From assembly GCF_022447245.1 (NCBI RefSeq), contig NZ_JAKVBC010000002.1:124001-188000 (forward strand): DNA of 64,000 nucleotides, read 5' to 3'. This stretch comes from Kordia sp. (GTDB lineage Bacteria; Bacteroidota; Bacteroidia; Flavobacteriales; Flavobacteriaceae). Positions 1 to 57,879 of the stretch are shown one piece after another. How positions within the stretch are numbered: the stretch's first letter is position 1; the number at the start of each line of letters is the position of its first letter. Both the position numbers and the translations under genes were made by a program. The notes under the pieces are model-generated. The model was not told where the DNA came from. It was given only the letters and a program-made list of their open reading frames with translations, and did no database searches.

Positions 1-1426
1 AAATCGCGCAATTCTTTATTACTACGTTTTAAATTTTCGAGCAATTCTTTATTTTCACTTTCGGCAGCAATCCTTCTTTCTAAATTCACTGCTTTTGTCA
101 ATTGAATAGAAACCAAATTGGCTACATTTTTCAGTAAGCGCAAATGCTCTTTTGTAAAAAAGTTCTTGGTAGAATGTTCGGAATCAATAACTCCCACGAC
201 TTCTCCTTTGATGATAATTGGCACTGAAATTTCTGAATAGCGTCTCATATCATCAACTACATAACGCTCATCTTTAGTTGTATCATGTACTAAAGCAGCT
301 TTTCCAGTTGCGCAACATTCCCTACTATTCCTTTTCCAAACGGAATGTATAGCTTATCAATAATTTCTTTGTTTTCATCAACTTTAGCACCGTAGCCAGC
401 TATTTGCTCTAATATATTTTCTTCTTTGTTGACTAAATACACTACACAATCTTCAAACTCTAAATCGCGAGCAGTTACATTCGCTATTTCCCAAGCAATA
501 TCATGAATGTTTAGTTTCCCAATAAAAGAGCGCGTTAAATTATTCAAAGTATTCAACATTAAACGTCTTTTATGTTTAACGGAAACATCTTCAACAAAAG
601 CTAACTGGTACTTCATTTTTCCATTACCATCTCGAACTCCAGTAACACTTGTCTTTGATAAAAATGAGGTTCCATCCTTTCGTTTGTACTTTTCTGTAAG
701 ACTGTAATGATCAATTTCTTTAGCAATCATTCTACTGTATAATCTTCTAGATTTCTCATGAGCATCTTCGTATGAAAGTGCATCTACAGGAGTTCCTAAA
801 AGTTCTTTATCAGTATATTGAATGAGTTTTTGAAACGCATTATTTGTTTTGATGATTTTTCGATCTTGTGCCAAAACAATTCCTAAAGTAGAGTTATCAA
901 CAATGGCTGCCAATTGCTCTTGCTGCTCCTCAAAGTTTACTGCATTTTCTTTAGATATGGTAATATCTCTTACAACGCCTTGCGCCGCTGTTATTTTCCC
1001 TTCTTCATTATAAATTAAGCTCGCATTAATCTGTACCCACTTTACTTCCTTATTCTTTGTAAAAATTCGCGCTTCATAATTTGTAAACGAACCTTTTTCA
1101 ATAAGTGCTGCGAAGGAATTCATTGCATACTCAAAGTCTTTACTGTAAATTAAATTGACAACGTTGATTGGTTCTTCTTTAATATCATATCCTATCAATT
1201 TGACTGCAGCATCATTCATTTTGATGACATTTCCCTTAGTATCCATGACAATAAAGGAATCGAGGATATTTTCAAAAAACGCATTGTATTCATGTGTTTT
1301 CGATTTGAGGGCTTCTTGTGTTTCTAGCAATTCGCTAGTACGGCTCAAGAGCAATTCTTCCGCTTTTTCACGGGCTCTTTTTTCGTTTTGGAGGGCTAGT
1401 TCAAGGGCTTGAATCTTATCTTTCAT
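1..1426 (-). pseudogene. PAS-PAS-GAF sensor kinase, frameshifted, C-terminus off the window
   Basis: Residues 1-47 form a charged coiled coil, followed by two PAS domains (about 48-165 and 170-285) and the start of a GAF domain. The frame stops at about 290 inside GAF. The next frame continues without interruption to the window edge, covering the rest of GAF (VHDTTKDERY, VPIIIKGEVVGVIDSEHS) and then NLKRSNKELRD, the usual lead-in to a HisKA domain in this phylum. One missing base near 304-313 explains the break; homologues read GNVA-x-TGKAAL there. The product would be a cytoplasmic histidine kinase; the response regulator upstream is a plausible partner. A real frameshift would remove the kinase domain. 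A sequencing error cannot be excluded because this is a single lesion. Confidence 0.75.
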
Positions 1427-1565
1427 TTAGAACGCAAATCTAGTTTCAAGGGATTTTCGCGTTTGAAGATAATAAATTCCAAATAATTTTCGGTCAATAA
1501 ACAAAATTAACCGATGAACTGCAATCTTGGTGCTTTAATTGGAATAAGAATTTTGAAATGCTTTT

Positions 1566-1979
1566 TTAGAATTCTATAACTTCATTTACCATCCAATAAT
1601 CAACTACACGCTGTATTTTTTTAATGTAGTCTTCATAACGTAATGGTTTGATAATGTAGCCTGCAATTCCGAGATTGTAGCTTTCCAACATATCTTGATG
1701 ATTGTTAGAAGTTGTTACGATGATTGCTGGAATGTAACGTAGATGTGAATCTTCTTTAAGTTCTTTTAGAAATTCAAGTCCATTCATCTTTGGCATATTT
1801 AAATCCAATAGGATAACATTAGGTAGCTCTTGTTTCTTTCGTAAGATATCAAGTGCTTCCTCTCCGTTCTTAGCCTCGAGTATTCTGTGAGTAAATCCTA
1901 ACTTTTTTAAAGATTTTTTAAACTTCAATACTTCGATCTCATCATCTTCGATGAATAAAAATGAAAGATTCTCTAACAT
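1566..1979 (-). CDS. single-domain response regulator (CheY/Rcp1-like)
   Basis: This 137-residue protein is one receiver domain with no output domain. The acidic pocket (EDDE, residues 11-14), the phospho-acceptor Asp59 in LLDLNMP, the conserved Thr in VTTS and the Lys in IIKPLRY are all present. The length and the sequence PKMNGLEFLKELK match Rcp1-type receivers that pair with PAS/GAF or phytochrome-like kinases. It lies 139 bp upstream of the frameshifted sensor kinase on the same strand, so the two probably form a two-component pair. If the kinase is truly truncated, this regulator has lost its local partner. Confidence 0.9.
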   Translation of the reverse strand: MLENLSFLFIEDDEIEVLKFKKSLKKLGFTHRILEAKNGEEALDILRKKQELPNVILLDLNMPKMNGLEFLKELKEDSHLRYIPAIIVTTSNNHQDMLESYNLGIAGYIIKPLRYEDYIKKIQRVVDYWMVNEVIEF

Positions 1980-2265
1980 TTGTTTAATTTATGGTTTTCA
2001 GCAATTAAAACGTAAATTTCCCGTTTATATGCGATATAGTTTAGTTCTTTCGATTAAATGATTTTTTAAGCAGGTTGAATGGTATTTATTCGTAGATTAG
2101 TGGTTTTCTGTTTTCTGCATTTTTTATGCTCTTTTTACCTCTGTTTGTGCTATTTTCTTAGAATAAACTTCCTTTCTATTTGATGATAACCTATTTTAAA
2201 TGTATCCAAATACTTTCCCAATAGATTTTTAAGAGCAAATTGACGGTTAATAGTGTCTCTATTTT

Positions 2266-2643
2266 TTATTGATATTTTGCCAATTCGGCTTGTTGTTTCT
2301 TAGTCATTCCTTTGACAACTAAATTGTACGATTCATCAACTAATTCTTTGATAAAATTATTTGGCAATTCGCCATGATATAATTCAATAGTATTCCAATG
2401 CTTTTTACTCATGTGATAGCCAGGTTTGATACTATCATATTCACCTCTAAGTTCTTCTGCCTTTTCAGGATCGCATTTTAAATTAACAGATGGAATACCT
2501 TCCTCCCATTTTTTTAAAGATGTTAAGGCGAACATTTTCCCTAAAACTTTAAAAACCAATGTATCTTGATCAAAAGGAAATTCTTCTGTAACTGCTGGTT
2601 TTTTAATACAAAATTCGCGAAGTAATTCTATGTCCATAAACAC
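2266..2643 (-). CDS. MmcQ/YjbR family protein
   Basis: The 125-residue protein matches the YjbR (CyaY-like fold) family by overall pattern: an N-terminal segment with TEEFPFDQDTLVFKV, then GKMFAL, a central SVNLKCDPEKAEELR, the PGYHMSKKHWNTI block and a C-terminal helix ending in a lysine-rich tail. Members are small and probably bind DNA in a non-specific way, but no biochemical role is established. MFMDIELL gives two start choices, Met1 or Met3; the difference is two residues. It stands alone, with about 290 bp of AT-rich DNA without a recognisable gene downstream (1980-2265). Confidence 0.85.
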   Translation of the reverse strand: MFMDIELLREFCIKKPAVTEEFPFDQDTLVFKVLGKMFALTSLKKWEEGIPSVNLKCDPEKAEELRGEYDSIKPGYHMSKKHWNTIELYHGELPNNFIKELVDESYNLVVKGMTKKQQAELAKYQ

Positions 2644-2704
2644 TATTTGCTGACAAGATATAAAAATCTTATCAACAGAGGAAGCTTTGGAAAATGATTA
2701 AAGA

Positions 2705-2842
2705 TTATGCATTAATATCTGTGTGATCATGCATTCCTTTTCTTTTGTTTTTTTGCTTAGGTGTCGCCTTTTGAATAGGAGCGATATCTAAGCTTACAAG
2801 AACATCATTTAGATAATAAATTACTTTATCAATTAGTGACAT
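2705..2842 (-). CDS. small hypothetical protein (45 aa)
   Basis: An ATG at 2842 opens a 45-codon frame (MSLIDKVIYYLNDVLVSL...) with an amphipathic N-terminal half and a basic tail (KQKNKRKGMHDHTDINA). It starts after an A/T-rich stretch typical of translation starts in this phylum and stays open to a TAA at 2705. I do not recognise a family. Coding status rests only on the clean frame and sensible composition, so it could be a chance frame. Confidence 0.4.
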   Translation of the reverse strand: MSLIDKVIYYLNDVLVSLDIAPIQKATPKQKNKRKGMHDHTDINA

Positions 2843-3759: not shown

Positions 3760-4020
3760 TTACGTTATTCCTAATATTCGATTTCGCGCTTGCTCGGTTT
3801 CTCTAATATCTTCTTGTGTACGGACAAATAACTCAATGATGGCATTTTCAATATCTTCATTTTCGTTTAATCCATTAAATACATTTCGGATCATAGACGA
3901 GCCATAAGGCTTATCATTTCTGCTAGTTACTTTTTTCTCTTTTAATATTTTTAGCACACCATCTGTATAATGATATCCCAACACTTCCTTGAGTTTTTTA
4001 CGCTGTTCTTTTCGTATCAT
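3760..4020 (-). CDS. hypothetical protein, 86 aa
   Basis: A short, charged, mostly helical protein (MIRKEQRKKLKEVLG...LGIT). The segment from about residue 11 to 55 (GYHYTDGVLKILKEKKVTSRNDKPYGSSMIRNVFNG) looks like a small helix-turn-helix-type DNA-binding unit of the kind linked to phage or plasmid regulators in Flavobacteriaceae, but I cannot assign a family. It is divergent from the two phage-repressor-like genes that begin 140 bp away, and the shared intergenic region could serve both. Confidence 0.7.
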   Translation of the reverse strand: MIRKEQRKKLKEVLGYHYTDGVLKILKEKKVTSRNDKPYGSSMIRNVFNGLNENEDIENAIIELFVRTQEDIRETEQARNRILGIT

Positions 4021-4108
4021 ATGTATACCTATCGTTTTATAATTAGTAAATTGCTAAATTAATGTCGCTTTTATGACACACATTATAGAGCTTACAGTAT
4101 AATATTAC

Positions 4109-4138
4109 AAACTATTTTCTACATAAAGAAACTTTATG
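4109..4138 (+). promoter_or_regulatory. shared upstream motif plus palindrome before HTH gene 1
   Basis: The 13-mer AAACTATTTTCTA (4109-4121) is directly followed by the inverted repeat CATAAAG-aaa-CTTTATG (4122-4138). The same 13-mer followed by a different inverted repeat lies in front of the paralogous gene at 4770-4803. This suggests an autoregulatory operator; binding is inferred, not shown. Confidence 0.45.
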
Positions 4139-4158
4139 CTGAAAAATTTAGTAAAACG

Positions 4159-4584
4159 ATTAAAATAATCGACAGAATTATCATCTTTATCAAGCATAAA
4201 AACCTCAGTATGCGCGAGTTTGATACGTCAATAAACGTAGGAAATGGCTATATAAGCAAGCAATCGAAATCTAGCGCCTCTGTAGGCAGTGATGTATTAG
4301 AGAGGATAATCGACACGTATCCAGATTTAAGTCCGCTTTGGCTACTAACTGGAAAAGGCACTATTATTATTGAAGTAGTTGATAAAAAGAATACTGACGA
4401 TACAAAAAATACAAACAAAGCAAATGAAACTCCATTTATCTATAACACCTTCGATGAAATTATTGAATCAAAAATAGAATGCATAGTTGCACGTCAATTG
4501 AAAACTTTTGGCGACAAACTTGAAAATATTCCTACTTTAGAAAAAATCAGTGACGAAATTCAGAAGAGTTTTAATAAAAATTAA
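4159..4584 (+). CDS. phage-repressor-like HTH protein, copy 1 (no ATG at the homologous start)
   Basis: This is a paralogue of the gene at 4821, with an N-terminal helix-turn-helix domain and the hallmark YPDLSPLWLLTGKG, seen in CI-like repressors of Flavobacteriaceae. The C-terminal half is a charged helix (DEIIESKIECIVARQL...) shared with the paralogue. In the paralogue the protein begins MKIIDRI; here the aligned codon is ATT (4159-4161) before KIIDRII, and no ATG, GTG or TTG lies in frame until 4210. Starting at 4210 (MREFDTS) would remove the first helix of the HTH. Either an ATT start is used, as known for infC, or the gene has lost its start codon. Confidence 0.65.
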   Translation: MKIIDRIIIFIKHKNLSMREFDTSINVGNGYISKQSKSSASVGSDVLERIIDTYPDLSPLWLLTGKGTIIIEVVDKKNTDDTKNTNKANETPFIYNTFDEIIESKIECIVARQLKTFGDKLENIPTLEKISDEIQKSFNKN

Positions 4585-7335: not shown

Positions 7336-7630
7336 CTACGAGCAAGACATCAAAAGTCTTATGATTGTTATTGCAAAAATAACAATTCATATAATCATAC
7401 GTAATGGAGAAGCCAGTTTTTCGTCCTATATTTCCTCAAGAAAACCTTCTGAGGCTAATACTTCTAGCTTCTGTTTTTGTAATTCGTTCTTCTTCCTTAT
7501 TATCCTTCTCATAATCTGTACAATTAGTGACAAAAGTTGGTTTTTGAACGGTAAGTCCGCAGACAATTCCTTGTGAAGAAGAAAATTTTCTGTTGGTAGA
7601 TACTTTACATAATTCTAATTAGGCACTCAT
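7336..7630 (-). pseudogene. decayed small Cys-rich membrane protein gene
   Basis: Read from the ATG at 7630: MSA-stop, then LELCKVSTNRKF, SQGIVCGLTVQKPTF and TNCTDYEKDNKEE, a pattern I recognise from small flavobacterial proteins (C..C.NRKF....GIICGLT). After a one-base loss near 7487 the next frame gives NELQKQKLEVLASEGFLEEI-stop-DEKLASPLRMII-stop-IVIFAITIIRLLMSCS, ending in a membrane helix. Lesions seen: TAA at codon 4 (7619-7621), one frameshift, an in-frame TAG and an in-frame TGA (probably from TGG). The first CxxC cysteine pair also reads CxxS. It fills the gap between hemW and the LRR gene. Confidence 0.7.
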
Positions 7631-9347: not shown

Positions 9348-9922
9348 TTATTTTTTAACTCTGTTTTCGTTTTGTTTTACAAAGCTCGCCCAACCTGAAT
9401 AACTCTTTCCAACTTCTACTCTACCCGAATTGTAAAAGTGACAGACTGCTGCTGCCAAACCATCGGTAGAATCTAAATTTTGGGAAGCGTTTTGAGTTGT
9501 AATAAGCTTTGTAACATTTTGGCAACTTGTTCTTTACTGGCATTTCCATTTCCAGTAATGGCCATTTTTATTTTTTTGGGAGAATATTCGATAATAGGAA
9601 CTTCGCGTGACAAACCTGCTGCCATTGCCACACCTTGGGCGCGACCAAGTTTCAGCATGGATTGCACGTTTTTACCAAAGAATGGTGCTTCAATCGCAAT
9701 TTCATCTGGATGATAGGTATCTATCAATTCAATCGTACGTTCAAAAATCAGTTTCAGCTTTAAATAATGGTCTTTGTATTTTTGAAGCTGTAATTCATTG
9801 AGTTGCAAAAAGTGCATTTTTTTCCCTACAACTCTAATCAATCCAAAACCCATAATCGTAGTTCCTGGATCAATTCCTAGTATTATTTTTTCAGTTTTTG
9901 ACGTCTTTTTCTCTTGATTCAT
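9348..9922 (-). pseudogene. ruvC: Holliday junction endonuclease RuvC, frameshifted near the C-terminus
   Basis: The first 149 codons give a normal RuvC: catalytic Asp in ILGIDPGT, Glu in [12 protein letters not shown], and [15 protein letters not shown]. The frame stops after LKTLPKI. The next frame continues directly as [18 protein letters not shown], which carries the last catalytic acidic residues, and ends at 9348 (about 191 residues, normal length). One A missing from the run at 9478-9481 accounts for the break. Without the C-terminus RuvC cannot cut Holliday junctions. The gene is divergent from the flippase-like gene. A read error is possible because this is the only lesion in an otherwise clean gene. 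Confidence 0.8.
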
Positions 9923-12188: not shown

Positions 12189-13470
12189 ATGATGAAAACC
12201 GATACTACTTGGAATATTTTCCAAAAATAACCTTTCGCTTCTTTTTTATTTACGTCTTACTCTATATGTTTCCGTTTCCTTTAAATGGCTTTCAGTATTT
12301 ACATAATAATGTTGTTATTTTTTTAAATGATACTATAAGTGGGGAATGTTGTTTCATTTATGGGGGATTTATTTTTTGACCTTAGTTTACCAAACCAAGG
12401 CCCAGAAAAGGAAGTGGCGATATGACGTATGATTATGTAAAGTTGTTTTCAGGTGTATTCTTTGCTATGTCAGGAGCCATTATTTGGAGTCCTATTGACC
12501 GTAATCGTAAGAATTATGCGAAACTGTTACGCTTATTGGTTCATATATGGCATATTTTCTGGCACTTACTATGTTTTTGTATAGCTTTTATAAAGTAATT
12601 CTGTTGCAGTTTTCCACGCCTTCTTTAGGAAGATTGGTTCAACCGTATGGGCATTCATCGCCTATGGGAATTACTTGGACATTTATGGGAGCTTCGGAAG
12701 CGTACACTATGTTTTTTGGTTATGCAGAAGTGACTGCTGGCGTATTATTAGCTTTTAGGCGCACACAAACCTTAGGTGGATTTGTTGCTTTCGGTGTAAT
12801 GTTAAACGTATTTATGATGAATATGTGTTATGATATTCCTGTAAAAACATATTATTTTCATTTACTGCTTTTTGCATTCTTTATTTTTATGCAGGACTGG
12901 AAACGCCTTTTTGCAGTGTTTTTTTCAAAGGCTACCATCACAGCACGAAGCTTCCCTGCATATTTTAAAGATCAACGGTTTATCATTGCAGCTTTCGTAT
13001 TAAAAATTGTCATTTTAGGACATTTTTTATATGCAAGTTCGGGCGATACTATTGAAAAAAGCGAGATTCGCGGTTCTAGCGTTCCAAAACCACCAATGTA
13101 TGGGGTTTATGAGATTCAGTATCATAAAAAAAATAAGGATTCCATTCCAATGTTAGTCACCAATGATATATTGTGGAGACGTATTATATTTCAGCGTAAA
13201 AATTTCTTTTCAGTATATCGCATGAATAGCACAAGTACGTGGTTAGCAATGAAATTAAATACTGTTGCAAAAACCATGGAAGTTAAAAATCGTAGAGATA
13301 CCACCGATATTTATAATTTTAAATACACTCTAAAGGATAACATTCTAACACTAAATGGCACACATTTAGGTGATACTTTATATATTAAAGTCAAACAATA
13401 CGATTTGAAAAAAATCAAGCTAATCAATAGAGACTTCAGTTGGATTAATGAATATCCATACAATCGCTAA
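12189..13470 (+). pseudogene. DoxX-like integral membrane protein gene, multiply frameshifted
   Basis: From the ATG at 12189 the frame reads MMKTDTTWNIFQK-stop; shifting one base gives TFRFFFIYVLLYMFPFPLNG, then further shifts give DLSLPNQGPE, GSGDMTYDYVKLFSGVFFA..IIWSPIDRNRKNYAKLLRLL and finally a 307-codon frame (12547-13470) with YKVILLQFSTPSLGRLVQPYG and several helices. These blocks follow the order of an intact flavobacterial DoxX-like protein. One-base losses are seen at 12223-12227 (A run), 12406-12409 (A run) and 12540-12541 (T run), plus a shift near 12371-12377. The protein cannot be made as one chain. The 307-codon tail could still be expressed, but it lacks the first helices. Confidence 0.75.
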
Positions 13471-13475
13471 ATGAA

Positions 13476-13943
13476 TTATTTCTCATGGTATAAACGAGAA
13501 TCAAAGCTAAATTTTTGGATCTTGACAACGCTTATTTTATGGAAGTCAATATGCATTGGATTTAAGATATAATTGAATTCATCTTTTACGATAGCTGAAG
13601 GCACTTTTAAAACTGCATATTTGTTCTCTTCCACAAATCGCGTAAATATTTGCTGTGTTTTGCTGTTATAAGGAAACGTATTCCAACTTTTAGGAAGTTT
13701 ATGAAGCTTTTGTATGGAGACTTCCTCAGGAATATTTATATGTACTAAAATACGATCATTTGGTAAATCTTCTGTGATGTCTAGGTGCATCACCACTTCT
13801 AAGTAGGCAAGTGAAATGTGTTGTGAAGTATAAACGGCGCGTGTTCCGATCTCGTTCCAGCGTCCACCAATTTTTTCCGCGCCAACTCCCGAAAGTAAGT
13901 TGTTCCTTCGTTTTGCTCTGTCAATTCTGTAAACTATCATCAA
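13476..13943 (-). CDS. RES-domain toxin (type II toxin-antitoxin)
   Basis: The 155-residue RES-family protein carries the name-giving residues: YRIDRAKRR near the N-terminus (Arg), GAEKIGGRWNEIGTRAVYTS and SLAYLEVVMHLD (Glu), followed by a conserved Ser-containing C-terminal part. Characterised RES toxins (for example MbcT and Xre-RES of Pseudomonas) destroy NAD+. The start overlaps the stop of the upstream Xre antitoxin (ATGA), the standard order. The module looks intact, although both flanking genes are pseudogenes. Confidence 0.9.
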   Translation of the reverse strand: MMIVYRIDRAKRRNNLLSGVGAEKIGGRWNEIGTRAVYTSQHISLAYLEVVMHLDITEDLPNDRILVHINIPEEVSIQKLHKLPKSWNTFPYNSKTQQIFTRFVEENKYAVLKVPSAIVKDEFNYILNPMHIDFHKISVVKIQKFSFDSRLYHEK

Positions 13944-14353
13944 GCAAAAATTCCGTAATCTATACGTCTTATTTCGTCTATAACTAATTTTACGCCGTAA
14001 CTTGTATCTAATAGGGAAAAAGGTGTTTGTCCGCCCAAAACTTTACTTTTTTTGTTGAGCCACCTAGTGAATTTTTTTTCATCACCAAAAACTTCAAACC
14101 CTTTTGAATATACTTCTGCAATTTCAAACAAACGTTCACTAACTTCTTTGTCGTAGCTGCTCTTTTTTGATAAGGTAGAATAGGAAGCTGGAACTATTTC
14201 TGATATTTTTGTCAACGGTAAAGCAATTCGCATGCTAAACTTTTTTAATTGTGAACGTGTTACACCACTTCTTGTGGCATGAATGATTTTTAGTTTATTT
14301 TGCGGTGAGTCATTTCGGTTATCAATATAACTCGTCAGGGTTAAAGCTTCCAT
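13940..14353 (-). CDS. Xre/MbcA/ParS-type antitoxin with toxin-binding domain
   Basis: The 137-residue protein has an N-terminal Xre-like HTH (HATRSGVTRSQLKKFSMRIAL, PLTKISEIVPASYSTLSKK) and a C-terminal DUF2384 toxin-binding domain (RLFEIAEVYSKGFEVFGDEKKFTRWLNKKSKVLGGQTPFSLLDTSYGVKLV; listed in part only by its blocks LFEIAEVY, WLNKKSKVLGG and PFSLLDT). It neutralises the downstream RES toxin by covering its active site and represses its own promoter. The 100-bp AT-rich region 14354-14455 would contain that promoter. Confidence 0.9.
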   Translation of the reverse strand: MEALTLTSYIDNRNDSPQNKLKIIHATRSGVTRSQLKKFSMRIALPLTKISEIVPASYSTLSKKSSYDKEVSERLFEIAEVYSKGFEVFGDEKKFTRWLNKKSKVLGGQTPFSLLDTSYGVKLVIDEIRRIDYGIFA

Positions 14354-14455
14354 ATTTTAGTAATTTTACCTAGTACATTATGTAAATTTACAATTATTTT
14401 ACATATCTACCATAGGAAAGAATCTTTTTTTAGTATTTTTAACAAAAACCCACTC

Positions 14456-15206
14456 ATGAGTTTATTCGTATTAAACACCTCAAATCCAGAATTTTATGAT
14501 TATTTCTGGAAACAATATAGTACGAAACGAACTAACAGAATGACACTGAATGGTGAGATTTTAAATCTATTTTTTGTTTACTACTTGTGAGTTTAACTGC
14601 TGCGTATACATGGAAATTATTCTTTGAAGGCGTCGATATTCAATGGTATACAACAGGCGGAATTTTTGTGCCACTTGTGTCCTTGTGTCCAGTTTTGTGA
14701 TTTCTGTAAGGCGCTAATGGACGATGCCACTCACTTTAATTTACGCTATTGCCAAAGGATTATTTGTTGTTGGATTTAGCGCTTATATTCATCAACGGTT
14801 TCCCTATTTACCATTTCAAGCTGTAATTATCACATTGATTACTTTTTTTGTCATGTTACTCTTGTGTATGGCACGTATTATAAAAGTGACTAAAAAGTTT
14901 AGAAGTGTTTTCGTTACTGTGATCTCCGTTATTTTCCTCGTTTATATTACATTATTTATCCTGAACTTTTTTGGTATTCATTTTTCATTCTTGTGGGACA
15001 GCTCATGGATTGCCATAGCGTTTAATGTTGCGGTTTCCATTTTTGCTTCGTTAAGCTTATTTCTCGATTTTGATTTTATGGTTCGTTATATAGGTCGCAC
15101 CAAAAAAAACTATGAATGGTTTGCCACTTGGGGATTATTGGTTACTATTATTTGGTTATAGGTGGAAGTGCTGCGTTTGCTAAAAAAATTAGCGATACGA
15201 TTTTGA
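14456..15206 (+). pseudogene. Bax inhibitor-1/YccA-like membrane protein gene, dead
   Basis: ATG at 14456 gives MSLFVLNTSNPEFYDYFWK and RTNRMTLNGEIL, then a stop. Restoring one A at 14563-14565 gives FCLLLVSLTAAYTWKLFFEG and IQWYTTGGIF. A tandem 8-bp duplication (TTGTGTCC at 14675-14682 and 14683-14690) breaks the frame again. Beyond it FVISVRR-stop-WTMPLTLIYAIAKG shows a TAA at 14715 where Gln is expected, and the final helix WGLLVTIIWL-stop-VEVLRLLKKLAIRF shows TAG where the family has Tyr. At least four independent lesions make this a true pseudogene. Six or seven membrane helices of the YccA type are otherwise recognisable. Confidence 0.85.
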
Positions 15207-18459: not shown

Positions 18460-18560
18460 GATTTTTAGTTATTTTTTTCGATTTCTTTACGTATTTTTTT
18501 ACTGCTACCGTATTACTATCATTTTTTCAAAAGAATGACAGCATACTTTTAAAAGGTCTT
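18457..18560 (-). pseudogene. remnant of a duplicated blaI 3' end
   Basis: The spacer before copy B aligns base by base with the last 100 bp of the intact blaI gene (20082-20185). Shared blocks include CGATTTCTTTACGTATTT versus CGATTTCTTTGCGTATTT and ATACTTTTAAAAG. The remnant has small indels and no usable frame. It marks the boundary of an old blaI-blaR1 tandem duplication in which one blaI was lost. Confidence 0.75.
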
Positions 18561-18585
18561 CACTGTTATGATTTTTTATATCAGC

Positions 18586-20536: not shown

Positions 20537-20569
20537 AAAAAGTGTTGATTTTTTTTTTAGCGCTTATTC

Positions 20570-21839
20570 TTAGTAGTATTCTAAGGTACGTGTAGTTTTT
20601 TCTGTCTTGATACCGTTTTGAAATGAAGTTTTTAAAGTCCAATTGCCGTATGTATCGTAAGTGTATTGACACGAAGTCTCTTCATTATATTTAAAATCTT
20701 GGTGTTTGCATCGATCTCCATATTGTGTATAAACAGCAATACTTTTTATCGTATCGTTTTTAAAATAGTGTGCGCGATATCCATTTTCAAATTTTTCTAC
20801 AACATTGACACGTTGTTTTGAAACTATTTGCGCATCTTTTTCTCGAATCTTATAACGTATGGTTTTGTATAATTCACCATTGTTTAAATCGTATTTGTAT
20901 TCGATAAGATAACCATCTCCTTTTATCTGTAAATACATACTGTGCAAGCCTATTTTTAGTATTGTACATTCTTATAGTAGTATCAATTCTTCCTTCTGAA
21001 CGACCTCCAAAACCTTCTTGAACTTTCTTTACAACATTATTTTGATGGTCATATTGGTAAGTAATCGTTTTAAATAGTTGATATTCTGAAAAGTCTCTAT
21101 CCGAAATAGCTTTAGTATTATTTTCATCAAAGTTGTATTCATAAGCATATACTTTTTCCGCGATCAATCTATTTTTTTCATCGTAGGTATACAAGCGAAC
21201 ATAATCTGTATCTACCATACTTCCTTTACACGAAACCCTGTATTCTGTTAAGGTATTTATTACTGTTGAATGATTCATATTTAGAAAGCAAAGTATCTTT
21301 GATATACGTGCAACGTTCTTTTATAAAATAATCGTTTTGATACGAAGATTTAAGCCAAACCTCTTTCAGTTTACCTTTATCGGTATAATTTCTCTTTTCT
21401 TCTACTTTGTGTAATCTAAGAAGCTTTTTAGCTTCCCTGTCATATATTTTTGCAAGTCGAACTTTATACACTAAGTCACCTTCTTTTGTATATATATTCT
21501 GAGTGGAAATTAACATTGATCCATTATCCTTTATCAAACCACTTTGCAACACATGGCCATGTTTGCCATATTCTTTGAATTCATTAAGTGGAACAAAAAC
21601 ATCTTTATCATGATTTGATTTTTCGTACTCCGTATAAGTGGAGTCTATCGGATTGAAAGCGTAAGAATAATTTTTTGTTACAGATTTTTAATATTTCCGC
21701 TTACTCGTTCTCCTTACATATAAGCATCATAATAATAAGACTCTGGAATAAGCGTTTCTGGTCGTATTACTGTTTGCGCGTACACAAAAGCAGTTATGCA
21801 TAGCGAAAAGAGGAAAAACAAGGTGATTTTTAGTTGCAT
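20570..21839 (-). pseudogene. secreted YD-repeat-like protein gene, multiply broken
   Basis: ATG at 21839 starts a signal peptide (LFFLFSLCITAFVYAQ), then SYYYDAYM-stop (TAA at 21714). A missing A at 21685-21689 shifts the frame to SVTKNYSYAFNPIDSTYTEY. The coding signal then runs in three overlapping frames (21226-21552, 20874-21278, 20570-20947), with a shift near 21240-21280 and another at the T run 20921-20924. The fragments share YD-like motifs (LYTYDEKNRLIAEKVY, TITYQYDHQNNVVKK, TYDTYGNWTLKT), typical of secreted beta-rich proteins. I do not recognise a specific family. Four lesions mean it is dead. Confidence 0.75.
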
Positions 21840-22082
21840 CAACTATTTTAACGTAGAATTTTAGCATTTATTGAAATTGAATAGCAATAAGAAGTATAAT
21901 CTTTATGATTTTACACTAAAATGTTATGTATTAAAGAGAATTTTGAAAATCGAATTTCCTTAAAATAAAAAAGCATCCCAATTTTCAATGAAGAAAAAAG
22001 GAAAGCTTTTCATTGGTTTAACTACTAAACCGAGGCAAACCAGAGGTTTACCTTAAACAACACAACTAAATCATTTTGCCAA

Positions 22083-25693: not shown

Positions 25694-26118
25694 ATGAAAG
25701 ACATCATCACAAAAGAAAAAATATTTATGCATCCTATCGATACGGTATGGAATGCTATTTCGAATGCAAAATAACTCTCTACTTGGTTTATTCAAGCTGA
25801 TTTTAAAGCCGAAAAAGGCTATCAATATACTTTTACATCCGATGAAGATGGATGCATACCCATTACTGTAGAAGTTAAAAATGCAAATCCATATACGCTA
25901 GTTTACACTTGGATTGTAGAAGGCACAAATGCAGAAACAAATGTAAGCTGGATGTTAGAAAGTATTCCAGAAGGCAAAAACTGCTTTTAGAACACTCAGG
26001 GATTTCAAATTACAAAGGAGAAACAGCTATGACTATGTTTGAAAGTTTTAATGGCGGCTGGGACAATTGTACTAGTAAATTAATATATTATTTAAAAGAA
26101 AATGCCCATGCAGGATAA
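25694..26118 (+). pseudogene. SRPBCC/AHSA1 (START-like) protein gene, disrupted
   Basis: ATG at 25694 gives MKDIITKEKIFMHPIDTVWN and AISNAK, then TAA (25772) where the family has Glu, then LSTWFIQADFKAEKGYQYTF and onwards to LESIPEGK. A missing A at 25976-25980 shifts the frame to LLLEHSGISNYKGETAM, MFESFNGGWDNCTSKLIYYL and the stop at 26118. One nonsense codon plus one frameshift in a 141-codon gene make it a pseudogene. SRPBCC proteins of this type bind small hydrophobic ligands and are usually paired with an ArsR regulator, as here. Confidence 0.85.
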
Positions 26119-26434
26119 AATCACTCAATTATTTAAAGCTATTGCCGATCCGACAAGGCGTGATATTTTTCATGCCTTAGTGATCGCTAGCTCAGCATTA
26201 TCTATTTCACAAATTAGCAATCAGTTTGAAATGACACGTCAAGGTGTAACCAAACATATTAAAACCTTGGAAGAAGCAGGTCTGGTTCATATTGAAAAGA
26301 AAGGACGCGAACGTTTTTGCGATGCAAATGCACAACCTTTAAAAGAACTTAATAAATGGTTACAATTCTATGAACAATTCTGGGATGATTCATTGGATAG
26401 TTTAGGTAATTATTTGGATGGAAAACTCTTGTAG
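26108..26434 (+). CDS. ArsR-family transcriptional regulator
   Basis: Start chosen at MQDKITQLFKAIADPTRRDIF (26108); MPMQ at 26102 adds two residues. The 108-residue winged helix has the family core ADPTRRDIFHALVI, the recognition helix SNQFEMTRQGVTKHIKTLEE and the wing VHIEKKGRERFC. No metal-binding CxC motif is present, so it is the type usually paired with an AHSA1/SRPBCC gene rather than a metal sensor. Its start overlaps the end of the broken partner gene, so the pair was an operon. The regulator itself is intact. Confidence 0.9.
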   Translation: MQDKITQLFKAIADPTRRDIFHALVIASSALSISQISNQFEMTRQGVTKHIKTLEEAGLVHIEKKGRERFCDANAQPLKELNKWLQFYEQFWDDSLDSLGNYLDGKLL

Positions 26435-33478: not shown

Positions 33479-34427
33479 TTAACTATCGTGATTACTAAAA
33501 ACGATATCTTTAACAAAAGTAACCACCGTTTTTCAACATACATAAGAAAGTGCAATTTCAACATAATCTGTACAACTGTACCATTTGCATCAGTTGTAAC
33601 CACTTTGAGCAATACTGACTTTATTTCATACGGAACGATTAATCCTTTGTATTTATATATTGGAACCCACCAACCTTCACCTACTTCTTCCCAATTTGGC
33701 GCTCGTTCTAAATTGAGTTTCTTCACAGTAGATTCTCTAATATCATCATAATTAGTGATTCGTATTCTATAGAAAAATGCATTGGTTGGCTCCATTTTTT
33801 TATACGGTTGACTTCCTTTCCATTTAGGCACAATTCCATCTTCATTTTTAGTTTCTCCCCATGAATTTAGCGCTTCTACAACTGTAGAATATACTTCTAT
33901 TTTTTTTATATTTTTTCTTTGACTTAATTTTAAAAAGCTTATTTCCTACTTCATAAAAAACCTCTTCATACGACAAAAGCGTGTCTTTATTTTTACTTTC
34001 TTCTCTAGCCTCTTCTGATTGAAAATTATAAGTTGTAAAGTCAGTATATTTAGACGAGAACTCAGAACTACAAACTATTTTACAAGAGTCACAGCCCCAA
34101 CCCATGTTCCATATGTCATTATTTTTTAAATAATAAATTACAAAAAACATACCCTTTTAATTCTGATGTTTCTCTTGATTTTGAGTTCACCAAATACCAA
34201 TTCCCTTCTATTTTTTTGCCACTATAATTGATTTCTAACTTGACATTGGTTTTATCAACCAATTCTAAAGGTTCTCCACAATAAAATTTCCCAATTCTTT
34301 CAGATTTTACATCAGGATTAGCTCTCACTATCAAACCGTTCTCTGCTATTACAGAGTAGAATTCCTGCTCTTGAATTTTAGGAATCAAAAAGAAAGTAAA
34401 GATTATTAAAATTAGAAAAGTTCACAT
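33479..34427 (-). pseudogene. secreted SH3b-domain protein gene, disrupted
   Basis: ATG at 34427 is followed directly by TGA, then TFLILIIFTFFLIPKIQEQ (a signal peptide) and the SH3b-like VIAENGLIVRANPDVKSERI and GKFYCGEPLELV. The frame breaks at the T run 34122-34127, continues with IWNMGWGCDSCK and EVFYEVGNKLFKI, breaks again at 33900-33907 (one extra base), and goes on with STVVEALNSWGETKNEDGI, PKWKGSQPYKKMEP and EGWWVPIYKYKG. A third shift at 33529-33533 leads to TVVTFVKDIVFSNHDS and the stop. A nonsense codon at position 2 and three frameshifts make it dead. Similar Kordia proteins are unknown-function secreted SH3b proteins. Confidence 0.75.
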
Positions 34428-34586: not shown

Positions 34587-34633
34587 CAGCCTTATTAATA
34601 ATCGAGGTCGTGAACCTCACAAATTAATTTTTT

Positions 34634-39055: not shown

Positions 39056-39292
39056 TTAGAGACAGACACAACTCTGACCAGGCTTACTGAAATTAGGATC
39101 TGGACAGTTATTGTCAAAATTGATTGAGAACTCTGTATTTGTTCTCACAGAAGTTTGACAATTCATTTCAAATGTTCCACAAGTAAGATCCGTGTTTGGA
39201 TCTGTTCCACCTTTAATTTTTTTAGATTGTAAATTCGCATCTAATTTTGCAACACTAAGTTTTTTGAGATTTAATTTCTTAAATTTTTTCAT
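39056..39292 (-). CDS. GG-leader peptide precursor 1
   Basis: The 78-residue precursor begins MKKFKKLNLKKLSVAKLDAN and has Gly-Gly at 28-29 (KKIKGGTDP), so the leader is two residues longer than in its relatives. The core (about 49 residues) has five cysteines (TCGTFEMNCQTSV, NCPDP, SCVCL) and many Ser/Thr. The architecture fits Bacteroidota natural-product precursors with GG cleavage (often labelled class I lanthipeptide-type), but no modification enzyme is nearby. It lies just downstream of the TPR-AraC regulator on the same strand. Confidence 0.8.
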   Translation of the reverse strand: MKKFKKLNLKKLSVAKLDANLQSKKIKGGTDPNTDLTCGTFEMNCQTSVRTNTEFSINFDNNCPDPNFSKPGQSCVCL

Positions 39293-39378
39293 AGGTAATA
39301 AAAAGTTTAATTTGAATAAATTTACTTAGGAAAGCTACATACAACAAAGAAATATAATCGTATTTACATAAATACGAC

Positions 39379-41313: not shown

Positions 41314-41565
41314 TTACAAATCTCCAATACCATCTTTACATGGATGAAATATTACTGGAAGAGAAATACAATCGGTAAGCGGAATTGAAATATCACAAGC
41401 TTCCTGAGTGCATCCTTGAGTGCATCCAATTGTAGGGCATGAAATTACCGACCAACAAGGTACAATTGTAATTGACCCAGCTTGCCCACCTACAGCTTTG
41501 CTCTTTTCTAAATTAGAAATTGACCTTTTGTTAAGTCTTAAATTTTTCAAATTCTTTTTTTTCAT
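41314..41565 (-). CDS. GG-leader peptide precursor 2
   Basis: The 83-residue precursor starts MKKKNLKNLRLNKRSISNLE and has Gly-Gly at 26-27 (KAVGGQAGS), exactly as in the copies at 52947 and 53358. The core (about 56 residues) has seven cysteines and several Ser/Thr, e.g. PCWSVISCPTIGCTQGC. This leader is characteristic of a Bacteroidota peptide family often labelled class I lanthipeptide. No LanB/LanC-type enzyme is in the window. It lies upstream of the TPR-AraC regulator on the same strand. Confidence 0.85.
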   Translation of the reverse strand: MKKKNLKNLRLNKRSISNLEKSKAVGGQAGSITIVPCWSVISCPTIGCTQGCTQEACDISIPLTDCISLPVIFHPCKDGIGDL

Positions 41566-41853
41566 AATTGTTTGATTTTTAAGTTAAATACGTTCAAACC
41601 TAAATAACTAAACCTTCAATTGAAAGAAATTGAAGTCGTAATTATGAAAATATCGGCACAAACAAAACAATCTTAAGCTGCTTATTTTAAGACACTTACA
41701 TTCAAAAAAAGCTTCATAAAAAACAAAAATACTATTCCAAGAATATATTTTAGAAGTAGCTTCTAATACTAGTTTTTTTCAACAAAACAACAATCTTTTT
41801 CTTACAAAACGCTTGATTCATTAAGCAATCAAACTGCTTTGAATACGAAAAAG

Positions 41854-45107: not shown

Positions 45108-45515
45108 TGCTAATACATTTTGGTCATTCCTACTCTTATTATTAGGCTTTTCGGTCTCCGCCTTTAATCTATTCTTATATAGATTAAGACTCATAGGTTG
45201 AATTTTGTTACCCATTCATCACCTTCTAGCTCTTTAAGAGTATTCTTTAGATGTCGTAAATCAATGATTTTAGTAATCTCTTATTTTTATAATTCAATTG
45301 CCTAAATTTTATTCTCGCATAGAAAGTCAATTTCCGATATAAATGAACAAGTAGATCTATTAGTGCGTGATTGTGCTAAGAAATTAAAGATATTTGCTTT
45401 AGTGTATTTTTTATTCTCTTAACGATGCGGATTATTAGAAAACATATTTTGAAGAAAGTATATCTCGATCAGTATTAATAGTTTCTTGAGATAACATAAA
45501 GAAATATAATTCCAT
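45108..45515. other. intergenic region without a recognised gene
   Basis: AT-rich DNA between the metalloprotease start and the tRNA terminator. It holds the protease promoter region, but I see no clear -7 box, RNA gene or coding frame. Confidence 0.5.
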
Positions 45516-45853: not shown

Positions 45854-48463
45854 CTACTTTTTTTTGCGTACCAACATGCGTTTTATCTCATTCAGCTTCA
45901 TTAAAGCCTCTACAGGTGTTAAGGTATCAATGTCGGTCATTAAGATTTCTTCCTTAATTTCTTCCAATAATGGGTCGTCCATGTTGAAAAAACTCAATTG
46001 CATGTCGTTTTCTACACTTTTTAAATCGTCCGCGAGTTCTTCACTGGAATGCGATTTTTCTAAACGTTTTAATATTTTATTGGCTTTATGAATAACCTGC
46101 TGCGGCATTCCTGCCATTTTTGCTACATGAATTCCGAAACTGTGTTCGCTTCCACCTTTGACCAATTTACGCAAGAATAAAACATTATCTTTTAATTCTT
46201 TGACTGAGACATTATAATTCTTGATACGATCAAAAATCTCGGTCATTTCGTTTAATTCATGATAATGCGTAGCGAATAAGGTTTTTGCACGTGATGGATG
46301 TTCGTGTAAATATTCTGAAATTGCCCAGGCAATCGAAATTCCGTCATACGTACTTGTTCCACGACCAATTTCATCTAACAATACCAAACTACGTTCCGAA
46401 ATATTATTCAGAATAGAAGCGGTTTCGTTCATTTCTACCATAAACGTAGACTCGCCCATCGAAATATTATCGCTCGCACCTACTCTTGTAAAAATTTTAT
46501 CCACCAAACCAATTCTCGCGGAATATGCTGGCACAAAACTTCCCATTTGAGCTAAGAGTACAATTAAAGCAGTTTGACGCAATATGGCAGATTTACCACT
46601 CATATTCGGCCCTGTAATCATGATGATTTGTTGCGCTTCACGATCAAGATACACATCATTCGCAATATACGTTTCACCAATTGGCAATTGTTTTTCAATT
46701 ACTGGATGACGTCCATTTTTGATATCCAAATCATACGAGTCATCAATTTGCGGATATACATAATTATTTGCTTTTGCTAGCGTTGCAAATCCGCACAAAC
46801 AATCTAGTTTTGCAACAATATTTGCATTCTGCTGCACTGCTTTGATATATTGATTGATCCAAACAACTAAATCAGCAAATAGCTCTTGTTCTATCTGCAT
46901 GATCTTTTCTTCAGCTCCTAATATCTTAGTTTCGTATTCTTTCAGTTCTTCTGTAATATAACGCTCTGCATTCACCAAGGTTTGCTTGCGCGTCCAGGAC
47001 TCTGGCACTTTGGCCTTGTGCGTATTTCGAACTTCTATATAATATCCAAAAACATTGTTGGAAGCAATTTTTAAGGATGGAATTCCTGTCGCTTCACACT
47101 CACGCTCTAGCATTTTGTCTAAATAATCTTTTCCAGAAAAAGCAATACCGCGTAACTCGTCTAACTTATCAGAATATCCCGTTGCAATTGCATTTCCTTT
47201 CAAAATATTTACAGGCGCTTCTTCATTTAAGATTTCTTTTATTTTAGAACGCAACAATTCACATTCATGAATGGTATCACCAATCACCTTTAACGCCTCG
47301 TTAGAACTTTTACTCGTAATCTGTTTGATCGGAACAATGGCTTCGAGTGAATTTTTCAATTGAATCACTTCTCTTGGTGAGATTTTACCCGTAGCTACTT
47401 TGGAAATCAAGCGTTCAATATCACTAATTTGTTTGATATGATGCTGAATCTTTTCCAATTCATCTTCTTCTTTCAACAGATAGTTTACAACTTCATGGCG
47501 TTGTTTTATTTGCTGACTATTTTTTAAAGGCAATGCCAACCAGCGTTTTAATAAACGTCCCCCCATTGGCGAAATCGTCTTGTCAATCACATCTAATAAT
47601 GTAATTGCATTGAAAGCGGTTGAAGCATACAATTCTAAATTTCGTACAGTAAAACGATCCATCCACACATAGGCATCTTCTGCAATACGCGCAATGGACG
47701 TGATATGTTGCAACTTGTTATGTCGCGTTTCTGACTGGTAATGTAAAACTGCTCCAGAAGCAATAATTCCCTCGTTTAAATCTTCTACACCAAAACCTTT
47801 TAGTGAACTCGTATCAAAGTGCGTAATGAGTTTTTCTTCGGCAAAGTCTGTTTTAAAAACCCAATCTTCCAAGTAGAAAATATGATGATTTGTTCCGAAC
47901 GTATCTGCAAATTCTAATTTCTTCTGTTTCGGAATTAAAATTTCGCTCGGTTTAAAATTTTGTAATAACTTATCAATATATTCTGCAGAACCTTGTGTGG
48001 TCATAAATTCTCCCGTAGAGACATCTAAAAAAGAAATTCCTAACTGTTTTTTTCCATAATGAACAGCACACAAAAAATTATTCGTTTTTGCTTGCAAAAC
48101 CTCATCATTAAAAGCAACTCCTGGTGTTACTAATTCTGTTACGCCACGTTTTACAATCTTTTTGGTTTGCTTCGGATCTTCTAACTGATCGCAAATAGCT
48201 ACACGTTCGCCTGCTTTGACCAACTTTGGCAAATAGGTATTTAAGGAATGATGTGGAAATCCTGCCAACTCAATATTATCGCCACCATTATTTCGATGCG
48301 TCAATACAATTCCTAAAATATTGGCTGCTTTCACAGCGTCTTCCCCAAAAGTTTCATAAAAGTCACCTACTCGAAATAATAGCATTGCATCTGGATATTT
48401 GCTTTTGATGCTGTTGTATTGCTTCATTAAAGGAGTTACTTTTTTCGCGCTACTTTTTGCCAA
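45854..48463 (-). CDS. mutS: DNA mismatch repair protein MutS
   Basis: The 869-residue protein has the mismatch-binding domain with the FGDFYETF-type motif ([16 protein letters not shown]: Phe and Glu present), connector, core/clamp and ATPase domains with Walker [15 protein letters not shown] near residue 615, Walker [13 protein letters not shown], and [11 protein letters not shown], followed by the C-terminal helix-turn-helix. The frame is clean over 2.6 kb. This matters because the single-base A/T-run losses elsewhere in the window are what mismatch-repair defects produce; mutS itself looks intact, and mutL is not in the window. Confidence 0.95.
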
Positions 48464-49759: not shown

Positions 49760-50893
49760 TTATGCTTCATTAATCTCCGCAACGATTTTATGATAATCAT
49801 TTGCATTCGCTACGAAATCCAAGTCAGAAACATCAATGATTTTTACATTTAAATCTTTATGTGTTCGGATGAATTCTAAATACCCATTGTTAATCTTATC
49901 TAAGTATTCTGAAGGTATTTTTTGTTCATAATCGCGTCCGCGTTTTTTGATATTTCGTAGCAAACGTTCCGTGTTTTGGTAGAGATACACATACAAATCA
50001 GGCTTTGGAATTTCTTTGTACATGATATCAAACAACTTTCGATACAACTTATATTCGTCTTGTTGTAAAGTCACTTTTGCAAAGATTAAGGATTTTACCA
50101 CATCATAATCAGACACAATAAAATCTTTAAACAGGTCCAACTGTGCTAAGTCATCTGAAATTTGCTGATATCGATCTGCCAAAAACGACATTTCTAATGG
50201 AAAGGCATACCGACTGTTATCTTCATAAAATTTTGGCAAAAACGGATTGTCTGCAAAACGTTCTAAGATCAATTTTCTATTAAAATCTTCTGCAATCTTC
50301 GTAGCCAATGAAGTTTTTCCAGCTCCAATATTCCCTTCTATGGCAATATAATTAAAACGAGAAAAGCTTTTGGTTGCATTCGGATTTTCTAAAACTTCTT
50401 CACTGACTTCCATTCCTTCATCTGAAATTTTAGTATTCAATTGAGAAACCGTTTTTTTATGTATTGGATGAATTTTACTTGGCGCAATATCACACAACGG
50501 TTGCATCACAAACTTACGCTCATATGCTAACGGATGTGGCAATACCAACAAGCCTGTTTCCATAATCGTATCTTCATAAAAAATAATATCAATATCAATA
50601 GTACGATCTTGATATTCCTTTTTGTGACTGCGAATCCGACCTAGTGAAACTTCAATTTCTAAAATCTCCGTCATCATTTCTGCTGGAGACAAAGCGGTTT
50701 TTACACATAAACACGCATTGTAAAAATCATTTCCATCATATCCCCATGAAGGTGTTTTGTAAATAGGTGAGATTTTTATAACACGACCAATTTTAGCAGA
50801 AAGTTGCTGCACTGCGTTTTGTAAATGTGCGCGTTTGTCGCCAACATTACTTCCAATAGAGATGTATGTAGTATGTAACAAGTTTGGATGCAA
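49760..50893 (-). CDS. folK: fusion of HPPK (FolK) and deoxynucleoside kinase
   Basis: The 377-residue protein combines two enzymes. Residues about 1-140 are 6-hydroxymethyl-7,8-dihydropterin pyrophosphokinase (SIGSNVGDKRAHLQNAV, ISPIYKTPSWGYDGNDFYN, RTIDIDIIFYED, PLAYERKFVMQPL), a folate pathway step. Residues about 165-377 are a deoxynucleoside kinase with P-loop IEGNIGAGKTSLAT, LERFADNPFLPKFYED and DRYQQ (nucleoside salvage). Both sets of catalytic motifs look intact. The fusion seems usual in Flavobacteriia; it links dTMP-demanding folate synthesis and deoxynucleotide salvage, but a direct channel is unproven. Confidence 0.9.
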   Translation of the reverse strand: MHPNLLHTTYISIGSNVGDKRAHLQNAVQQLSAKIGRVIKISPIYKTPSWGYDGNDFYNACLCVKTALSPAEMMTEILEIEVSLGRIRSHKKEYQDRTIDIDIIFYEDTIMETGLLVLPHPLAYERKFVMQPLCDIAPSKIHPIHKKTVSQLNTKISDEGMEVSEEVLENPNATKSFSRFNYIAIEGNIGAGKTSLATKIAEDFNRKLILERFADNPFLPKFYEDNSRYAFPLEMSFLADRYQQISDDLAQLDLFKDFIVSDYDVVKSLIFAKVTLQQDEYKLYRKLFDIMYKEIPKPDLYVYLYQNTERLLRNIKKRGRDYEQKIPSEYLDKINNGYLEFIRTHKDLNVKIIDVSDLDFVANANDYHKIVAEINEA

Positions 50894-52946: not shown

Positions 52947-53159
52947 TTACAGACAATGGCATTCTGAACCTCCGTTACAACTCAACCCACATGTTTCAGT
53001 TCCTCCTCCACAATAGTCTGAGGCATCGTGTGGACAAGTCCATCCTCTATATGAAAGACATCCATAAGTGATTGAAGATCCTCCGTTTAATTGTCCTTCA
53101 GTCAAATTAGAAATACTGCTTTTGTTTAACCCTAAACTTTTTAAATTCTTTTTTTTCAT
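52947..53159 (-). CDS. GG-leader peptide precursor 3
   Basis: The 70-residue precursor starts MKKKNLKSLGLNKSSISNLT with Gly-Gly at 26-27 (LNGGSSITYG). The core (about 43 residues) has eight cysteines and is rich in Gly/Ser/Thr (e.g. DYCGGGTETCGLSCNGGSE). Same leader as peptide 2. The Cys plus Ser/Thr content would suit lanthionine or disulfide formation, neither of which can be shown here. It is the first of three such genes on the minus strand in 52.9-53.9 kb. Confidence 0.85.
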   Translation of the reverse strand: MKKKNLKSLGLNKSSISNLTEGQLNGGSSITYGCLSYRGWTCPHDASDYCGGGTETCGLSCNGGSECHCL

Positions 53160-53357
53160 AATTGTGATATTTTGTGATTAATACATGTACTAAAATTACA
53201 AGAGATCCACATTCACTCAAAACACTTACAGTCAGCAATTTATAAATAACGAGTCGAAATTCATGAATTTCGACATTCACAAAATGTAAGAAAAAAGTAT
53301 TTCCGAATCAACAGAAAGACTTTCATGTCTATAAATTTTAAATTGAAATATCAATAA

Positions 53358-53540
53358 TTATTTTTTCCAACAATCTAGAGTTCCTGAAGGTTTTGGACCA
53401 GTATTGCCTTCACATCGCAAAGTACATCTCAAAGACCTAAGCTTAGTGCTTCCGCTAACTCCTCCTTTTAATTGAGTATCTAATAAATTAGAGATTCTTT
53501 TCTTATTTAATTTCAAAGTTTTTAACCCTTTTCTTTTCAT
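53358..53540 (-). CDS. GG-leader peptide precursor 4
   Basis: Start at MKRKGLKTLKLNKKRISNLL (53540), not the longer upstream frame, because this reproduces the leader length of copies 2 and 3 with Gly-Gly at 26-27 (LKGGVSGST). The core (33 residues) has three cysteines (RCTLRCEGN, DCWKK). It is basic, unlike the other cores. It lies 198 bp from peptide 3 on the same strand, and the AT-rich spacer 53160-53357 contains no gene I can see. Confidence 0.8.
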   Translation of the reverse strand: MKRKGLKTLKLNKKRISNLLDTQLKGGVSGSTKLRSLRCTLRCEGNTGPKPSGTLDCWKK

Positions 53541-53742
53541 AATAATTTGCCTCTTTGGTTTTACAATAAAACAAAGGCATATCTTACAAAATACCAATCA
53601 TAACAATTATAATCTGTTCTTCACAAACAACGAGTCGTAATTTATATATTACGACTGCTATTAATTTATTTTTTAAAAAAAACTACTCAAAAAGCAACCT
53701 CCACATTACTTTTCAAGTAGCTCAAAAATAAAACTTTAAACA

Positions 53743-53937
53743 CTAAATATCGTCAAATGGACAACCAGGATGACCACTTCTATTTCCGCAATCGCCTGTA
53801 CAATTAAAAGCCTTTTGAAATGGAGTACATCCATCGGAACATCCAGTTGAAAATAATCCTCAATTGACAATTTCTCTATTCAAATCAGAAATTGATTTTT
53901 TGTTTATAGACAGCTTGCCTAGTTTTCGTTTTTTCAT
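53743..53937 (-). pseudogene. GG-leader peptide precursor 5 with stop at the first Gly of the GG site
   Basis: The frame reads MKKRKLGKLSINKKSISDLN, then REIVN-stop-GLFSTGCSDGC and on to the Cys-rich end GCPFDDI. The stop is TGA at codon 26 (53860-53862), the exact place where copies 2, 3 and 4 have the first Gly of the cleavage pair; a GGA-to-TGA change explains it. The rest of the frame is open and the core keeps seven cysteines, so loss is recent. Recoding of TGA is unlikely because other genes here end in TGA. Confidence 0.75.
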
Positions 53938-54093
53938 AATATATTCGCTTTTTTGATTCACTAGCTAAAGTAGCAACAAGTAATTTACTATAAAACAACA
54001 GTTTATTCATATTTATAAATTTGACATAAAAAACGGTATCAAATCATTTTTTAACAGCCAAATTCTTAACATAATACTCGAAAGAAACTTTAG

Positions 54094-54101: not shown

Positions 54102-54105
54102 TAAT

Positions 54106-57543: not shown

Positions 57544-57726
57544 TTTTCTTTCTAGATTTACTTATTTGCGGATTCGTTTTTTACCAATTCACAATTAACC
57601 AACTCACTTTTAGTAGCTTACAAGGTTAGCAGTTTATTTCTTTTTTAATGTTAATTACGTTATTCCCGTATACAATTTAGCATTTGATTTTTGCTTTTCA
57701 TTACATTTTAACCAAAATATTATACC

Positions 57727-57879
57727 ATGAAAAAACAAAGTCTCAAAGTATTGAAATTCAATAAATAGTCTATTTCTAATCTTTCATACGAAAATGCAAA
57801 CAATATAAAAGGAGGAACTTTTGTTTCATTTTTCTGTTCTGTGAGTGCAGAAGAGCACAGATGCGATCCATTTGACTAA
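57727..57879 (+). pseudogene. GG-leader peptide precursor 6, nonsense-mutated in the leader
   Basis: MKKQSLKVLKFNK-stop-SISNLSYENANNIKGG, then TFVSFFCSVSAEEHRCDPFD and a stop. The leader of this family is clear (LKFNK.SISNL). The TAG (57766-57768) replaces codon 14, usually Lys, Arg or Ser in its relatives. The Gly-Gly lies at 29-30. The core is only 20 residues with two cysteines, so it is the shortest member. It is on the plus strand, opposite to the other copies. Confidence 0.7.

Follow-up and report, generated by a model that had tools for sequence, protein, structure and literature searches.

Probable recent, lineage-specific decay of accessory genes across a Kordia genome

A Kordia genome very likely carries the marks of recent, lineage-specific and genome-wide decay of its accessory genes, probably brought about by selection that weakened not long ago. 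Of the genes sampled and shared with the closest relative at hand, roughly one in nine has been inactivated by small indels and nonsense mutations. Adjacent genes can differ greatly in how far they have decayed, and the core genes that were examined show no damage. Taken as a whole, the decay is most likely real and young pseudogenization confined to this lineage, a further case of a process already known, and it appears to extend beyond the analysed stretch into many parts of the genome. We propose that selection may have weakened recently either through small populations or through a change of niche, perhaps to a richer or more sheltered one. Genes for sensing, surface and secretion functions, stress and sulfur assimilation would then drift into pseudogenes singly, with lesions arising through commonplace point mutations and replication slippage ahead of large losses of DNA. 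A literature search for Kordia together with pseudogenes returned no title on pseudogenes in Kordia bacteria.

Broken and intact genes in the window

The DNA analysed here (the window) is a stretch of 64,000 nucleotides that corresponds to positions 124001-188000 of contig C12 of the source genome (G000; 5,244,617 bases, 82 contigs, 99.75% complete). The search set held 60 genomes, the source included, ten of which belong to the same genus (the congeners). The closest relative fetched, G001, shows about 81-85% DNA identity in aligned blocks and is collinear with the window over positions 1-28459. Conserved open reading frames (ORFs) of the relatives were located in the window by tblastn and then aligned to it with a frameshift-aware protein-to-DNA aligner.

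The initial annotation had described a series of broken genes in this DNA, and most of them proved to be real (Table 1). Seven are broken in G000 and open in the congeners that possess them, rather than sharing split frames with them: the sensor kinase, the small Cys-containing gene, ruvC and the genes first read as DoxX-like, YccA-like, YD-like and START. The sensor kinase is open in all nine congeners that yielded the gene (G001-G009), the G001 copy being a 687-aa protein with PAS, GAF, HisKA and HATPase_c domains. An uninterrupted homologue of the small Cys-containing gene, 94-96 aa long, is found in 9/10 congeners (no match in G005), and in G000 one of its cysteines is also substituted. 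For the DoxX-like gene, which has a homologue in six congeners, one alignment gave four frameshifts, of which three were counted in the G001-wide comparison; the G001 copy matched no Pfam or NCBIfam family, so that the name is unsupported there. Open homologues were found in seven congeners for the YccA-like (Bax-inhibitor-1-like) gene and in four for the START-like AHSA1 gene, while the YD-like gene occurs only in G001 and G002 among the regions read. The frame that adjoins the AHSA1 gene (26102-26434) is open and reads as an ArsR-type regulator.

Three further genes named as broken were judged against references other than syntenic orthologues. The SH3 domain gene shows its two frameshifts relative to a non-syntenic homologue in G001, and the in-frame stops of the two lanthipeptide-type leader genes were judged solely against paralogous leaders. 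Several other small peptide genes of the window are open; two of them match a class I lanthipeptide leader model, one above its cut-off, and a broken leader adjoins them. The window also holds an open RES/Xre toxin-antitoxin pair, 84-99% conserved among aligned congeners, whose Xre partner was assigned by reading.

Table 1. Genes and elements of the window discussed in the text (window positions).
Feature	Position	Strand	Observation
PAS-GAF sensor histidine kinase	1-1426	-	frameshift near 310; gene extends beyond left window edge
Small Cys-containing gene	7339-7630	-	frameshift and stops
ruvC	9351-9922	-	single frameshift near 9481 through loss of one base in an A run
426-aa gene (first read as DoxX-like)	12192-13467	+	several frameshifts
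RES/Xre toxin-antitoxin pair	13476-14353	-	two open genes; toxin model NF049844
Bax-inhibitor-1-like gene (PF12811; first read as YccA-like)	14378-15203	+	frameshift, duplication (8-bp tandem, 14674-14689), two stops
blaI remnant	18460-18585	-	between two blaR1-like genes; also present in G001
424-aa YD-like gene	20567-21842	-	frameshifts and stops; 49% identity to G001
AHSA1 (START-like) gene, PF08327	25668-26115	+	two frameshifts and one stop
dnaE	28945-33330	-	lesion-free control; 9/9 aligned relatives without frameshift or stop
Bacterial SH3 domain gene	33536-34421	-	two frameshifts against a 290-aa gene on G001 contig C13 (PF08239)
S16-Flavobacteria ribosomal leader	34594-34628		Rfam match ahead of the 34634-35137 gene
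Small peptide genes	39059-39325, 41317-41583, 52950-53177, 53361-53597	-	open
DUF805b RNA	45127-45164		Rfam match within the start of the metalloprotease frame
mutS	45854-48463	-	lesion-free control; seven relatives aligned; TTG start in 7/7 aligned congeners
Lanthipeptide-type leader gene	53758-53943	-	in-frame stop, against paralogous leaders of G001, G006, G008 and G009
Lanthipeptide-type leader gene	57727-57867	+	in-frame stop, against paralogous leaders

The contrast drawn originally with clean housekeeping genes also stands. Apart from dnaE and mutS, the AsmA-like gene aligns lesion-free with five relatives, the metalloprotease is a single 1102-aa frame, and sppA aligns without lesions save for one stop, which falls where the G006 frame extends further at its N-terminus. 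Of two other items, one is not decay of this lineage and the other probably is not. G001 has the same blaI remnant between its own two blaR1-like genes, so the remnant predates the present decay and is probably an older leftover of a tandem duplication. As for the two genes said to lack an ATG start, which had been left unnamed, mutS begins with TTG throughout the aligned congeners and frame 49763-50893 does so in 6/7 of them; the missing ATGs thus look like conserved alternative starts.

Lesions across the sampled genome and the case for error

Further stretches of G000, on contigs C12, C1, C2, C18, C19, C42 and C82, were compared with the matching stretches of G001 and of a more distant complete genome, G009. 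The sample is non-random, being made up of the window's own contig and of contigs paired via ABC genes. ORFs shorter than 100 aa or longer than 1700 aa, those below 50% identity and matches near piece ends were excluded from the test, lesions within 7% of either end of a protein were left uncounted, and two G001 ORFs and one G000 ORF were dropped for poor alignment. On this basis 33/286 aligned G001 ORFs (at least 100 aa) are broken in G000, as against 9/299 G000 ORFs broken in G001 (Fisher p = 8e-5), and some of the nine reverse rows resemble pieces of genes that are broken in G000 (C12 157448 and 157851, C19 20782). The asymmetry sharpens to 32/286 versus 6/299 (p = 6e-6) when both flanks of a lesion must be at least 50% identical (filtered hereafter). 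Two rows counted as broken are doubtful: a kinase at C12 71577 with poor flanks (0.27/0.27), and window gene 3989-4569, which is probably an artefact of an N-terminal extension, since shorter homologues exist; without them 31/284 genes are broken in G000 (p = 2e-4). The ABC-transporter family had been tried as a genome-wide pseudogene probe and gave no stops among the matches listed; the family is too conserved and domain-limited to inform.

The 33 broken genes carry 71 lesions, 37 stops and 34 frameshifts, of which the flank filter retains 51; alignment artefacts may account for some of those in stretches of low identity. Among the lesions are the kinds reported initially, namely loss of a base in an A run (ruvC), substitution stops and the 8-bp duplication. 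Could the breaks be artefacts of a poor draft sequence or assembly? We consider this improbable, even though part of the data fits it: only one lesion was counted in 20 of the 33, some of these being very well conserved frames (ruvC, 95% identical; the sulfhydrylase gene discussed below, 96%), and frameshifts are enriched near homopolymers of at least five bases (0.21, versus 0.09 for random coding positions), as either sequencing errors or slippage would give. The distribution of the lesions, however, speaks against error. Eleven of the 286 genes hold at least three, where 1.2 are expected and the maximum in 20000 random placements was 7; after filtering, four genes do so against 0.5 expected (P = 0.001). 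Conservation is also lower in broken genes, whose median identity is 0.82 against 0.91 in intact ones (p = 3e-6), and this holds weakly even where there is a single lesion (P = 0.033).

The stops argue against error in another way. If random substitution errors were frequent enough to account for 37 stops among 71 lesions, radical changes would be expected across the core proteins too. Among 4587 columns (27 genes) at which the other genomes do not vary, G000 has 50 unique changes, with a mean BLOSUM score of 0.94 and 6% of changes at -2 or lower, within the congener range (0.61-1.0 and 3-14%). Many more random substitutions would be needed than this mild pattern suggests. The initial annotation had favoured relaxed selection on accessory functions over random error, and the overdispersion, the lineage specificity, the share of stops and the lack of a random-change signature in core proteins all speak for that preference.

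Substitution patterns along each branch, for which an outgroup was available for 133 of the 286 genes, bear on both error and age. The ratio of nonsynonymous to synonymous changes (N/S) in intact genes is 0.26 on the G000 branch and 0.22 on the G001 branch. It is 0.70 versus 0.51 in the three genes with at least three lesions and is not raised in the seven with one or two (0.25 versus 0.33), as error would also have it; taken together, the G000 branch shows hardly any rise. These values suggest that selection still acted on the broken genes examined along most of the branch, and that the decay is young. We conclude that the lesion pattern as a whole is most likely biological, and that any individual single-lesion gene may be either a very recent loss or an error.

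Distribution among contigs and congeners

Broken genes occur on each of the six contigs set against G001: 14/129 on C12, 11/41 on C19, 2/45 on C18, 2/23 on C2, 3/27 on C82 and 1/21 on C42. The fraction differs among contigs (p = 0.025), and C19, of which 80 kb was read, is the densest, with five of its 11 broken genes carrying at least three lesions. Against the more distant G009 the asymmetry is weak (7/164 genes broken in G000, 5/171 in reverse).

The broken genes had first been described as clustered, which raises the alternative that decay is a local affair of the window region, perhaps with C19. This seems very unlikely to us. The first 28 kb of the window (C12 123300-152500; window 1 to 28.5 kb) does hold 7/30 broken genes versus 26/256 elsewhere in the sample, C19 is dense, and against G009 broken genes lie on C12 and C19 alone, with none on C1, C2, C18 or C42. 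Yet the excess in the window stretch is not significant (p = 0.06; 6/29 versus 25/255, p = 0.11, without the two doubtful rows), and the presence of broken genes on every contig compared with G001 argues against a single island. The claim of clustering was therefore not upheld.

That the decay is specific to this lineage is the reading that the congeners favour. When the region syntenic with the window was compared all-against-all among 11 genomes, pooling query-target comparisons so that one gene counts once per query genome, G000 as target had 34/340 broken (31/340 filtered), while the ten congeners as targets had 1.2-4.5% (0.3-2.1% filtered). Counts of distinct loci after filtering weaken the contrast, with ten in G000 and one to five in each congener; if at least two query genomes must back a locus, G000 keeps four, G006 and G007 keep one each, and the other congeners have none. 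Three nearest-partner pairs of congeners, tested in both directions, gave 2/246 broken genes and 0/246 after filtering, compared with 6/42 for G001 to G000 and 0/43 in reverse. Mean protein identity is similar in these comparisons (0.84-0.93 in the three pairs, 0.87 for G001 and G000). Two further congener pairs showed one filtered broken gene each, in one direction.

The genome is not reduced in size, and its coding density is barely lower than in its relatives. At 5.24 Mb it lies within the 4.0-6.4 Mb of its congeners, and in the sampled stretches ORFs cover 0.849 of the DNA, next to 0.858 in G001 and 0.870 in G009. In the window, coverage is 0.805 versus 0.814-0.884 in the syntenic stretches of the congeners.

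Functions affected and comparison with known decay

Going by their G001 counterparts, the genes being lost are in our judgement mostly accessory. Regulation is represented by two histidine kinases (one of them the doubtful kinase row) and a TPR-AraC regulator, and secretion by three Por-secretion-tail proteins, among them a subtilase with MAM domains. The others include a spondin-domain protein, a polysaccharide-synthesis protein, a GMP-mannose-pyrophosphorylase-like enzyme, two DinB-fold proteins, a PqiA-like protein, an AhpC/TSA protein, a Bax-inhibitor-like protein, a nucleoside phosphorylase, an aminopeptidase-like protein, an M50 peptidase, an aminotransferase, a LuxC-like reductase, a CysZ/EI24-like protein, a DUF4421 protein, a ResIII helicase and RuvC. 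Several G001 copies matched no family.

RuvC merits separate treatment. The gene is open in 10/10 congeners and in G011, and a DNA alignment with seven congeners shows one base absent from a short A run and the remainder of the gene kept. Across the other 59 genomes the fragment found matches in 58, with open frames of at least 182 aa versus 149 in G000 (four of the 58 match rows flag one TAA within the stretch), and the remaining genome, 84% complete, gave no match. Likewise, 79 of 80 RuvC loci in a named-genome collection are open for at least 160 codons from the match start, and at the 80th, L134, the frame reads on past an upstream stop. The match in the window is the sole RuvC match in the G000 genome, and the gene seems to be among those lost; its lesion is single and could be a sequencing error or a very recent loss. 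That a repair defect, in ruvC or in mismatch repair, drives the lesions is highly improbable: the break in the sole ruvC and an 18% excess of parsimony-counted synonymous changes in intact genes on the G000 branch over the G001 branch (4595 versus 3884) fit it, but mutS, mutL and ruvA are open, the examined core genes are spared, the A run hit in ruvC is short, and the gene's own-branch changes (2 nonsynonymous, 13 synonymous) suggest that it was lost late. Under weakened selection, ruvC most likely counts among the recent hits and is not a demonstrated cause of decay.

Sulfate assimilation may have been caught near the start of its loss. In the cluster at C12 41276-49412 (contig positions), a gene with a siroheme-synthase domain has one stop, as does an O-succinylhomoserine-sulfhydrylase-like gene that scores just below the NCBIfam cut-off. 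Their neighbours (C12 41-54 kb) are open and, by our reading of the sequence, correspond to cysN, cysD, cysH, sir and a siroheme methyltransferase. An open frame at C12 52931-54223 reads as a sulfhydrylase paralogue. A published study of Kordia (PMC7477175) reports that three of five Kordia carry a cysND-cysH-sir cluster close to methionine genes. The species it names with the cluster do not include K. jejudonensis or K. periserrulae, so that G000 seems unlikely to be either of these. The patchy assimilatory sulfate reduction described there is mirrored by the siroheme-synthase domain, which is stop-free in five of the ten congeners and has no strong match in the other five; G000 differs from the pattern given there in that the cluster is present with open frames and single stops in two genes. 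Loss of the pathway in G000 thus seems to be at its beginning, and it would be unsafe to annotate sulfate assimilation in this genome as functional.

A bolder view, which we hold to be unlikely, is that G000 is a non-reduced marine Kordia at the very onset of reductive evolution, in which around a tenth of the genes shared with G001 are dead and the one transposase family covered has not expanded. On this view RuvC-dependent junction resolution has just been lost, and the resulting defect in recombination could lock the decay in. A lineage of a marine genus, with several sequenced sister species intact for these genes, would allow the order in which functions are lost (sensing, secretion, stress, sulfur assimilation) to be observed, and the same lineage could serve to test whether loss of recombination genes precedes or follows decay.

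Gene decay passes quickly through its early stages, which, to our knowledge, have mostly been described in symbionts and pathogens; Sodalis, Mycobacterium leprae and Salmonella Typhi are reportedly examples. G000 differs from such recently host-restricted or bottlenecked bacteria in its genome size and near-normal ORF coverage; it has no known host link, and DDE_Tnp_1, the one transposase family searched, gave two matches in the genome. It resembles them in that many accessory genes are broken by small lesions, stages of decay are mixed, the core is kept and sister species are intact.
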